Shown here piece after piece: positions 37,401 to 43,400 of a stretch of DNA of 64,000 nucleotides; within the stretch, counting starts at the first letter, position 1, and the number at the start of each line of letters is the position of its first letter. The stretch spans positions 3,643,001-3,707,000 of the forward strand of contig NC_089736.1 in assembly GCF_035083965.1 (NCBI RefSeq). The letters run 5' to 3'. The stretch comes from Branchiostoma lanceolatum. Lineage: Eukaryota > Chordata > Leptocardii > Amphioxiformes > Branchiostomatidae. The notes under the pieces are model-generated. The model was not told where the DNA came from. It saw nothing but the letters and a program-made list of their open reading frames with translations, and made no database searches. Both the position numbers and the translations under genes were made by a program.

Positions 37401-40400
37401 AAATCCTGTTCCTAAATGATGTCATCCAGAAGCACAGGGCGACGGGAGCACGGGCTCAGATGATCATGGTAGGTGCAGGAACTTAAGATCCTTGAGATAG
37501 ATGCCTTCAAAACGTAATATCTTATTGGATAAGCAATTGCTCTGCTCTGACTTACTCTAACTTGGTATACAGGAGCTTGTAAAAGACAACAAAGAAAACA
37601 GAAACTGCATTAAAGCACATACATGTATGATAGAGGCTGCTGCTCAAGAATTAGTCAGTGTAGTAATCTGACTGATGCCCTCCACAAGAAAAGACTACAA
37701 TCACATTATAGGACTATCCTCTAATGTCGTGCAAGCTAGACAGAAGCCTACTTATTCTGCCTTGTCCATTGTTATTCTATTACACATTTCATTAAAAGCT
37801 AATGATGAAGGGAATTACTGATCTTTTATCAGAATGGTATTAAAAGTGAGAAATCTCTCCCCTACAGGAAGACTGGGACTTCCTGCAGCTCCAGTGTGCT
37901 CTTTATATCAACAGTGAACAGGGAGGCATTCCTCTCAACATGCAGGTTAGTGCTGCAGTACTACACATGACTGCTAGGGGTCACTGCTATGTTGTATAGC
38001 AACCAAAGCAACAGTGTTAGGTCTGCTAACTTTTGCTCAGTCTCAGAAATTGAAAGACTTCTCGGTTAGTGCTGCAGTAATGCAAGTGACTGCTAGGTGT
38101 CACTGCTATGTTGTATAGCAACAGTGTTAGGTTTAAAGCTTTGACAAGTATTTCTGCTAACTTTTGCTCAGTCTCAGAAAATGAAAGACTTCTCGGTTAG
38201 TGCTGCAGTAATGCAAGTGACTGCTAGGGGTCAATGCTATGTTGTATAACAACAGTGTTAGGTTTAAAGCTTTGACAAGTATTTCTGCTAACATTTGCTC
38301 AGTCTCAGAAAATGAAAGGCTTCTAGGTTAGTGCTGCAGTAATGCAAGTGACTGCTAGGGGTCACTGCTATGTTGTATAATAACAATGTTAGGTTTAAAG
38401 CTTTAACAAGTATTTCTGCTAACATTTACTCAATCTCAGAAATGGAAAGACTTCTCTTTGCAATGTTTACAAAATTTGTATCTACTACAAGGCTGTCTCC
38501 AGGACCCATCCCTCTGTCCAACAACAGAAATTTGCTTGTTGGGACAGACAAAAGTTTCACCCCTTCCTTCCAAAAAATCTGATCTTCGTGACATGAAGCT
38601 GTTGAAAATATAGTTTCGTAAGCTTCAAAATAAACAAATTTAACAACAAAAATCAACAACACCGGTGCCCAAACAATTAGTGGCATGGAAAAAATTTAAG
38701 CTGGAGGCAGCCCTGATCTAAAGAAAGAAAAGAAAAGATAAGATGCTTAACGTTGCTATAGGCTTTTGAAAACAATGAAGAAACGTATTAAGATATTCAA
38801 GCTAATCTTTTCATCTTGCAGCCAAAGAAACCAACTCGTGGGTTTTGCCAAAGACTGAAGGGCAAACAAGGTCGTTTCCGTGGCAACCTGTCAGGAAAGC
38901 GAGTTGACTACTCCAGCAGGACCGTCATCTCTCCTGACCCTAACCTCAGAATAGACCAGGTGAGACTTTTATACCTCACTCACACTTAAGCACTTCTGTA
39001 CCTAAAATTGTGCATGCATCATCCAGCCAAGGTGTTCAAAAGATTTGTTTTTCCCTAAAACTAGTATAGAGACTGGAACTTGTTGCTACCAAGTACGGTA
39101 GGTGCAGTCTCATTAGATAATTTTAAACAACACTTGCTGTCAGAGGTTAGGTCGTTCAGTGTAATCTAACCAGCTGCTGCTCCACGTGCCTGTGAAGCTG
39201 GTGTGTTTTGCCAAAGAGCAGTTATACCGGCTATACAGATACAGATGTGTGTTGGAAGTTACAGTTTAAACCAGTCTCACAATGATATCCAGCACAGGTG
39301 AACTTTCAAGCTAAATCTATGTCTGTTTATCCCAGGTTGCAGTGCCCATCCACGTGGCTAAGATCCTGACATACCCAGAGAAAGTGAACAAGGCTAACAT
39401 CCAGCTTATGAGACAGCTGATAGTGAACGGGTGTGACACTCACCCAGGGGCCAACTTTGTGGAGTCACGGGCTACGGGGGTCAAAAGGTCAGGGTTCAGA
39501 AGTCAAAGTTTAAAAATTCAAAGTTTGAAGAATTATGAAGTAGGCAAAGAAGACTTACTGTGAACTTCTAAGTTGAAATTAGATTGAAATCTAGATAAAT
39601 GAAAAACTATGAGGGTCAAAAGGTCAGGGTTCAGAAGTTAAAGGTCAAGAATCAAAACATGAAAGTTTTAGACAGTTTACAAAGTAGGCAAAGAAGATGT
39701 AGCCATCTAGAAATGAATTGTCTTGCTGTTAGAGTTGCTGTATACACAAGACACAGAAGCTTACATTACCCCTCAAGTTCTTTGGTAGATTTTTAATATG
39801 TATTCAAAGTTGTTTCTATTCCTTTGTTTCAGATTCCTGAAATATGGCAACAGGCAAAAGATAGCACAAGAACTAAAGGTAAATACTTGTTATACATGTA
39901 CTGTTAAGACTACAGATGTAAGTGCTTCAATCTGTAAATATCAATGCATATCAGAACTTTATATTTCATTCAGTCACAATTTAGTAATTTTCTATATCCC
40001 TTTACAGTATGGGGATATTGTGGAGCGACACTTGAAGGACAAGGATGTGGTTCTGTTCAACAGACAGCCGTCTCTACACAAGCTCAGTATCATGGCTCAC
40101 TATGTAAGTCTCTACACAAGCTCAGTATCATGGCTCACTATGTAAGTCTCTACACAAGCTCAGTATCATGGCTCACTATGTAAGTCTCTACACAAGCTCA
40201 GTATCATGGCTCACTATGTAAGTCTCTCTACACAAGCTCAGTATCATGGCTCACTATGTAAGTCTCTACACAAGCTCAGTATCATGGCTCACTATGTAAG
40301 TCTCTACACAAGCTCAGTATCATGGCTCACTATGTAAGTCTCTCTACACAAGCTCAGTATCATGGCTCACTATGTAAGTCTCTACACAAGCTCAGTATCA

Positions 40401-43400
40401 TGGCTCACTATGTAAGTCTCTACACAAGCTCAGTATCATGGCTCACTATGTAAGTCTCTACACAAGCTCAGTATCATGGCTCACTATGTAAGTCTCTACA
40501 CAAGCTCAGTATCATGGCCCACTATGTAAGTCTCTACACAAGCTCAGTATCATGGCTCACTATGTAAGTCTCTACACAAGCTCAGTATCATGGCTCACTA
40601 TGTAAGTATGGAAAAGACAGTGGCTTCCAATCCTTCAAGGCTGTTCCAGCCTTTTTCACACTATGTATTCCAATTGCAAGACATGGTAGATGTGAGCCAT
40701 AGAGTGGCCACTGATCTGGTGTACTAGTTAGAGCTTCTGGCCTATTTCAGTCAATGACTGTGTCAAAAGTTCAGTAGCCATTGCTCACCAAATTATGTTG
40801 TTGTTTTTTTTTTAAATCAACATGAGCAGAGCCTTGTATTGACAAGGCACTGAGTCTCAATGTCCTTCAAAGACTGAAAGAAGGATATATAGTTGAGTGT
40901 CCACAAACAAATATCATTCACTACCTTGGACAGGGTTCAAAAGAAGTATGACTTGACTTAAGAAGACTCTCCTAACTGAGGATTGGAACTGTGTTATGCT
41001 ATTCAGCATGATTTGCACAGATTATAGGTTACAGCATAAGAGTTAAATCACATTGAAATGAGGTGTAGGTCATACTAATATGGATCATCATTCAGCACCA
41101 AGGACAGATCAGGATCTTGACTTGTGTTCTCTCCAGGCGAAGGTGATGCCCCACAGAACGTTCCGGTTTAACGAGTGTGTGTGCACGCCGTACAACGCTG
41201 ACTTTGACGGAGATGAGATGAACCTGCATCTCCCTCAGACAGAGGAGGCGAAGGCTGAGGCTCTCATTCTCATGGGGGTAAATAACATACTTAAGTGGAA
41301 ACTTTTTTGATAATCTTCGTAATAAGTCCATGATGCTTAGTTATTATACCAGGCCCTGTGCCAAAGTGATTCTCTTTTTGTAAGAGAATTTATGTACAGA
41401 GGATTATCAGTTTTAAGAAATTCATGAATTTTCCAGTAATTTTTTTTAGTTAAAGTCGGCTTTGATGTAGGTTTAAACTTTTTAAGTCCTTAAAGACCTC
41501 TAGTTTGCTTTGGTCTACCGTAGATACTTGAATTATTTTTACTCTAAAATTTGCAGCAGTTGATTTTTTTAAATATCTTAAGTAATGTAATAGAAAAAAA
41601 ATGTAAAGAGTATTCTACATCACAATCGCCAGAAATACATTTTTCATGCATGTTTTTTAACAGGTTTAGTCCAACCTGGTTATCCCACAGAATGGTGAAC
41701 CGCTGATCGCAGCCATCCAGTATTTAACTTCCATTCTCTTTCCCATAGGTGCTAAACAGAGAAGCAGCATGTACCGTGTTTAACCTCAAATTCTTTACAG
41801 CAAGGACTTTATTTTATGTAATTCTTACCCACAGGTCAAGTCTAACCTAGTAACCTCCGGGGAACAGTGAACCTCTGATCGCGACCATCCAGGACTTCAT
41901 CACGGGGTGGTACCTGCTGACGTAGAAGGACACGATGTTCAATGTTTCTACCTTAAGCTTAAAAAATTTCTTTCATGTATTTGTAACCCACAGGTGAAGT
42001 CTAACCTAGTGACCTCCCGGGAACAGTGAACCTCTGATCGCGACCATCCAGGACTTCATCACGGGGTGGTACCCACTGATGCAGAAGGAAATGATGTTCA
42101 ATTTTTCTACCTGAAGCTTAAGACATTTCTTCCATGTACTGTAACCCACAGGTAAAGTCAAACCTGGTGACCCCGCGGAACGGTGAACCGCTGATCGCAG
42201 CTATCCAGGACTTCATCACGGGGTCGTACCTGCTGACGCAGAAGGACACAATGTTCGACCGCGCCAAGGCGTGTCAGATCATCGCCTCCATGCTGTCCGG
42301 CGGGGACAGGACGGAACGGATCGACCTGCCGCCTCCTGCCATCATGAAAGTGAGCACAGCATTCGTCTTCTTGAATTATGCATTCTTTTTAATACACTGT
42401 GCACAGTTAAGGTTTGATGACAGTGGCACGAAAAGAAATGACTGTTAGTTCTGCCAAATTACTGAAATTCAGAATACAGTAAGCTTGGCATAAAAGTGGG
42501 AAGATATTCTTAAACATGTTATATGTTACATCTTTAAAAGAAATTTCACAGGAAATAAAGGTGACAAGAAAGATTCAGATGAACATGACGGAAACAAATT
42601 CTGGCCTTTTAAAAAATCTATACCACATTCTTGTCTATTGATTGCGTGAACAAATAATAGACTCCCTCTTTGCTCGTCTTGGTTGCCAGTCTATAGCAGT
42701 GTCTGATGCATACGGTGTTGGCTCAGCAGGAATCATAAGTGTAAAACTAAAGTCTTAGACAGATCTAGACATAAGATGTGTGTTTAATCTTGACCTTTCC
42801 TGTTGTTTCCCCAGCCCATGTGCCTGTGGACAGGGAAGCAGATCTTCAGTCTCCTCCTCAAACCCAACAAGACGTCTCCCATCAGGTGTAACCTCAAGGC
42901 CAAGACCAAGTCTTACACCAAGGGGGAAGATCTCAGCACTAACGACTCTTGTAAGTGTATCAGGGCTTGAAATTCAATATTGTGACCTAACAACCAAACT
43001 TAAGCTTAAATTTAGTTAAAAATCAGCTGCATATCTCCTATACTGGGTGAACAAAAGTGGATATGCACCCAGTATTTCGAAGAGTCACTACTGCTACATA
43101 AACAACACCGGTGAGAAACTGCTACATGTAGTTGTTAGACTTAATCACCAAATTTAGAAATAACTTGCAACTTCTTCAAAATGTTGTATGACAACTCATG
43201 TACAGGTGCATGTATAAGGGTATAAAAAGAAGCTAAAACGTTCTTTATTATCAAAGTAATAAAAAGAAAAAGTATCATTGTTATATTCACATTTTGTTTT
43301 TCTATCCTTTCAATGCTAACACAGGACTTATATTATAACTGTATTTTGCATGCAATGCATGAAATTTTTACATGTTCAGTTTCTGAAAATGTTGGCAATA

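Follow-up and report, generated by a model that had tools for sequence, protein, structure and literature searches.

How can a gene keep its message intact when one of its exons ends in a long series of identical splice donors? This question is raised by the POLR3A gene of the amphioxus Branchiostoma lanceolatum, which lies in a stretch of 64,000 nucleotides (positions 3,643,001 to 3,707,000, forward strand, of contig NC_089736.1 in assembly GCF_035083965.1), here called the window, with positions counted from its first base. The end of POLR3A exon 12 is repeated there in a tandem array of 14 copies, each closing with a perfect donor. According to PMC3087553, amphioxus "mirages" are tandem repeats over exon-intron boundaries, on the donor and the acceptor sides. 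We consider that the array is very probably a young donor-side mirage, in which donor 1 would be used and the other copies would leave with intron 12.

The donor array of exon 12

Tandem Repeats Finder placed the array at 40070–40607 of the forward strand, with a period of 38, 14.1 copies, 98% matches and a score of 1033. The initial annotation had described 14 tandem GTAAGT donors in an array with a repeat of 38–40 bp, and both points were confirmed by this program and a donor script. It had also given 30 coding bases per unit; the actual number is 32, and the unit of 32 exon 12 bases plus the 6 intron bases GTAAGT spans the exon-intron boundary in 14 copies. Every donor is preceded by TAT. 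The donors start at 40104, 40142, 40180, 40218, 40258, 40296 and 40334 (donors 1–7) and at 40374, 40412, 40450, 40488, 40526, 40564 and 40602 (donors 8–14), and the spacing is 38 bases in 11 of the 13 intervals and 40 bases in the other two. GTAAGT occurs 33 times on the forward strand of the window, 23 times in the POLR3A gene and 14 times in the array.

The 38 bases up to and including each donor are identical in 13 of the 14 copies, copy 12 differing by one T>C, and 2 additional bases are found in copy 5 and in copy 8. The near-identity of the copies, together with these internal variants, suggests a recent expansion. The earlier proposal that near-identical copies mark such an expansion agrees with the sequence, which would fit either recent expansion or homogenisation. 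Two blocks of 38+38+40 bases (copies 3–5 and copies 6–8) point to a single step in which three units were duplicated as a block; a period of 116 bases was also called in the array by Tandem Repeats Finder.

A GT is common to both edges of the unit, as CCGT precedes the first unit and AAGT closes it. The most economical history is that the 38-bp segment over the boundary of exon 12 and intron 12 underwent a tandem duplication, probably between these two GTs, of which the exonic one belongs to CCGT and the other, at donor positions +5/+6, to AAGT. Expansion to 14 copies would have followed the first duplication, with one step perhaps copying three units together. There is one authentic boundary, at the intact exon, and copies 2–14 lie in the modelled intron 12, within which they would be removed; any use of donors 2–14 would give a message carrying a premature stop. 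Because the exon-side boundary is intact, the protein would not change provided that splicing starts from donor 1, and the array would therefore survive selection and be free to expand.

Reading frame and choice of donor

The coding gene model of POLR3A (31500–56027, forward strand, like all features of this gene given below) has 35 exons and 1390 codons without an internal stop. Its building was guided by a provisional human POLR3A reference sequence, and the modelled protein is 73.2% identical to that reference. Independently of this guide, the best PDB match of the spliced protein was the RNA polymerase III RPC1 chain 7a6h_A (1390 aa; query 1–1386, 2398 bits), which we take to be the human chain. 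The next was the RNA polymerase III RPC1 chain 5fj8_A, presumably of yeast, with 1501 bits, and RNA polymerase II subunits reached at most 837 bits. The modelled exons measure 44–225 nt. Exon 12 (40008–40103, 96 nt, phase 0) ends at donor 1, and exon 13 (41137–41277) follows after an intron of 1033 bases.

A pseudogene or decaying duplicate of POLR3A, for which splicing fidelity would be irrelevant, is suggested by the stops that the tandem exon 14 copies contain at 41.8–42.1 kb. These stop-bearing copies are intronic in the model, and the uninterrupted 35-exon frame with its full-length RPC1 match led us to reject this explanation on coding grounds as extremely unlikely.

Each donor was joined in silico to exon 13 at 41137. 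Joining of donor 1 (40104–40109) to exon 13 gave the POLR3A frame, and in both the joining script and the full-length model it was the sole donor of the 14 with an open frame. The decoys, donors 2–14 (40142–40607), are all GTAAGT, and all of them led to a premature stop. Donor 2 shifted the frame and met a TGA in exon 13, with the stop after 492 codons in the full-length model. Donors 3–14 formed an in-frame TAA within the second GTAAGT, which stopped them after 490 codons. The extensions to donors 4, 6, 8, 11 and 14 are divisible by three, so these donors are not excluded by phase alone; it is the TAA that excludes them.

These results bear out the initial annotation on the identity of the gene and on donor 1 as the only open-frame donor. 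They also agree with the phase shift it gave for donor 2, although its argument from phase has to be completed by the stop codon. Its view of exon 12 as an active-site exon was not upheld, since the ten-residue motif to which we assign a catalytic role is encoded in exon 13 instead.

Cryptic exons inside the array (40110–40600, from an AG to a donor) are a possibility on paper, although their use is unsupported. The shortest kinds, of 21, 33 and 54 nt, stay in frame, and in-frame exons of this type would repeat residues such as LSIMAHY.

The locus may be regarded as a natural experiment in donor choice, as 14 identical donors follow one another at a spacing of 38–40 bases, the sequence upstream of each is the same or nearly so for 32 bases or more, and only the first gives the protein. 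Several points weigh against the reading that donor 1 is used and the other copies are removed. We infer the use of donor 1 from the protein, and no local feature that marks this donor was found when site, flank, accessibility and folding were compared. The nine bases of the site are the same at all 14 donors, and of the four donors compared over the six bases after the site, donor 14 is the one that deviates. The predicted accessibility was 0.42–0.50 over the 14 donors, with 0.46 for donor 1, and the stretch of about four copies at 40070–40220 folded worse than most shuffles (z +1.61; 192 of 200 folded at least as well). Exon 12 extended to donors 2–4 would measure 134, 172 and 210 nt, which is inside the 44–225 nt range of the gene.

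Three explanations were set aside. Masking of the decoys by RNA structure was not supported, given the weak folding of 40070–40220 and the similar accessibility of all 14 donors. Exon size is insufficient, because the exons extended to donors 2–4 are of ordinary length for this gene. Recursive-splicing ratchet points were rejected on inspection of the sequence, since each of the 14 GTAAGT is preceded by TAT, not AG. The context differs in two places: unique exon sequence lies ahead of the first copy, and the intron sequence that follows donor 14 is different.

When identical donors are in competition, the intron-proximal one is often favoured. Given this preference, some other rule would have to operate if donor 1 is to be used faithfully, and candidates for it are early commitment in transcription or signals farther upstream in the exon. 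The literature on donor competition gave no usable support for the intron-proximal rule, which is given here as general background; passages of PMC2423196 concern tandem donors a few bases apart.

Boundary duplications elsewhere in POLR3A

The direct-repeat searches of the gene listed 20 of 21 families and 24 of 36 local matches, most matches inside the array being left unlisted. Among the matches listed, nine more POLR3A boundaries have part of their sequence repeated in the intron next to them, the repeat of exon 8 only touching its boundary. Besides exon 12, the copied donors are those of exons 6, 8, 10, 25 and 34, and the copied acceptors are those of exons 5, 14, 21 and 24; all were delimited by repeat search and alignment.

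On the donor side, exon 6 (36743–36878) has two copies 75 bp apart and exon 10 (39472–39697) two copies 135 bp apart. The donor repeat of exon 8 (37944–38456) comprises the authentic donor and three copies, with 1–2 exon bases in the unit. A copy of the exon 25 donor (49901–50158) lies at 50146 with its motif kept, and the mirage at the exon 34 donor (55308–55615), with a unit of about 93 bp, consists of the authentic donor and three copies. On the acceptor side, exon 5 (35250–35750) has a decoy copy at 35250–35424. The mirage of exon 14 (41642–42256) has three copies upstream of the authentic acceptor, and that of exon 21 (46599–47028), with a unit of about 149 bp, has two. At exon 24 (48993–49185) the copy lacks the AG.

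The splice signal is kept in the decoy donors of exon 6 (1/1), exon 8 (3/3), exon 10 (1/1), exon 12 (13/13) and exon 25 (1/1). At exon 34 no copy (0/3) has ATATCC; the fourth base is changed in two of them and the AT is lost in the third. The AG is kept in the decoy acceptors of exon 5 (1/1), exon 14 (3/3) and exon 21 (2/2), and in none (0/1) at exon 24. When 19 donor decoys were placed in the full model, 18 gave a premature stop. The exception was the exon 6 decoy donor at 36865, which kept the frame open while adding 25 codons, and a POLR3A isoform made with this donor is possible. All six mirage acceptor decoys in the same test, from which the decoys of exons 34 and 24 were left out, gave premature stops. 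In the full model, stops also followed from three further AG sites unrelated to the duplications (41691, 46224 and 46596).

Introns 25 (49922–50410) and 34 (55323–55945) start with ATATCC, finish with AC and have TCCTTAAC near the 3' end, a pattern which we take to be that of U12-type AT-AC introns. Both are apparently of this kind. GT-AG sites for these two introns were poor, and AT-AC sites brought back the match to the reference. The six copied donors of POLR3A include both U12-type donors of the model, and copied U12-type donors would widen the mirage class to the minor spliceosome.

The position of repeats relative to boundaries was assessed with a placement model, in which each repeat family was tried at every gene position that leaves the protein intact. 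Nine of 15 families were found to span a boundary, compared with 4.1 expected (P=0.0055). Adding the intronic family 36908/37008, which came from the other repeat search, gave 9 of 16 with 4.2 expected (P=0.0081). The 15 families are a hand grouping of the 36 repeat matches (24 of 36 listed) made after viewing. Exon 8 was scored as non-spanning, with 1–2 exon bases in its copies, and exon 12 as spanning, despite 4 intron bases in the register used versus 6 required. The enrichment of repeats at boundaries is modest evidence and is read as a hint, because the grouping was post hoc and the families differ in age.

It is conceivable that tandem duplication in this genome is directed at the exon-intron boundaries themselves, for both spliceosomes, and in the strongest form of this idea the array would be a copy-number-variable regulator of POLR3A, acting via donor competition and nonsense-mediated decay (NMD); we hold this to be rather unlikely. 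The density of boundary copies, about ten in one housekeeping gene, suggests that mirages may far outnumber those in the few published genes.

In intron 24, at 49325–49720, a repeated CAGCACCAAGGACAG-containing element is interspersed with GT repeats, and a stretch similar to it lies in intron 12 near 41094. This element is perhaps a dispersed repeat.

Relation to known amphioxus mirages

A further boundary repeat was found on the reverse strand, in PA2G4. This donor-side mirage (22955–23299) has four copies of about 98 bp, with donors at 23282 (authentic), 23176, 23078 and 22981 that read GTAAAT, GTAGAA, GTAGAA and GTAAAA, respectively, and all keep GT. The gene was identified from the exon at 23277–23465, for which PDB gave PA2G4 chains with a best E of 7.8e-24. 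Boundary repeats thus affect donors as well as acceptors, and they occur in more than one gene (POLR3A and PA2G4). From the boundary copies elsewhere in POLR3A and in PA2G4, it follows that the exon 12 array fits the described class of amphioxus mirages. The repeat anatomy and the closeness of the protein to human POLR3A would suit an amphioxus.

Among the papers listed, only PMC3087553 and PMC3902484 were recognised as treating mirages, as judged from the listings and not from full texts, and POLR3A is named in neither of these two amphioxus papers. PMC3087553 refers to the Adh3 mirages (Canestro et al. 2002, as cited there), with units of 10–72 bp and with somatic and length instability. This range takes in the 38 bp of the POLR3A array, which differs in its gene and in having 14 near-perfect copies. 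The same paper described globin mirages with units of 150–160 bp. In BflGb6 and BflGb9 of Branchiostoma floridae, donor-side and acceptor-side boundaries are duplicated, as they are in POLR3A, and the units are close in size to those of POLR3A exons 14 and 21. Haplotypes of BflGb6 differ in copy number, with 3 and 6 repeat units, whereas the POLR3A array has 14. Splicing of the globin mirages was checked by reverse transcription polymerase chain reaction, while the POLR3A array is known here from DNA sequence alone. In PMC3902484, the lancelet PGBD5 repeats of 60 and 108 bp lie at the 5' and 3' splice sites, so that both sides are involved as in POLR3A; unlike the POLR3A array, they are imperfect and have fewer copies.

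Copy numbers in such repeats may also arise during assembly, and the real locus might then have one or a few copies. PMC3902484 reported that the PGBD5 repeat numbers vary by assembly (2 or 7, 3 or 6), and one globin mirage was termed aberrantly assembled in a draft in PMC3087553. However, copies 5, 8 and 12 of the POLR3A array bear variants, and the diverged boundary duplications elsewhere in the gene are beyond what an assembly slip would make. An artefact is very unlikely on these grounds.

The array might instead be an active unproductive-splicing device, in which donors 2–14 lead to NMD and the copy number sets the amount of POLR3A. This would agree with 13 decoys that are all intact, identical donors ending in premature stops, and with the lack of any local feature found to mark donor 1. 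On the other hand, the results in PMC3087553 suggest that regular splicing is undisturbed by mirages, and the Adh and TnC mirages are cited in PMC3902484 as making no aberrant mRNAs. Some boundary copies of POLR3A, at exons 34 and 24, are decaying, which is not the picture of a function under maintenance, but the signal is still present in most copies. Taken together, such a device appears improbable. Frequent loss of message by NMD through the decoys, which the initial annotation had raised, is possible; it is not the default expectation, because published mirages are reported as not disturbing splicing.

The array also resembles intron gain by tandem duplication, in which the duplication likewise crosses an intron-exon boundary. 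In that process a new intron is created, whereas the POLR3A protein needs none, although short in-frame cryptic exons within the array are possible on paper. Unusual features of the array and its gene are the 14 near-perfect copies, the fact that this gene is essential, how densely its boundaries are copied and the presence of both U12-type donors among them. The POLR3A array looks like an extreme case of a mirage, unusually long and pure.

Elsewhere in the window, exons of a gene with the Pfam domains ANF_receptor and 7tm_3, which we take to be a class C G protein-coupled receptor-like gene, were observed at 788–7256 on the forward strand.

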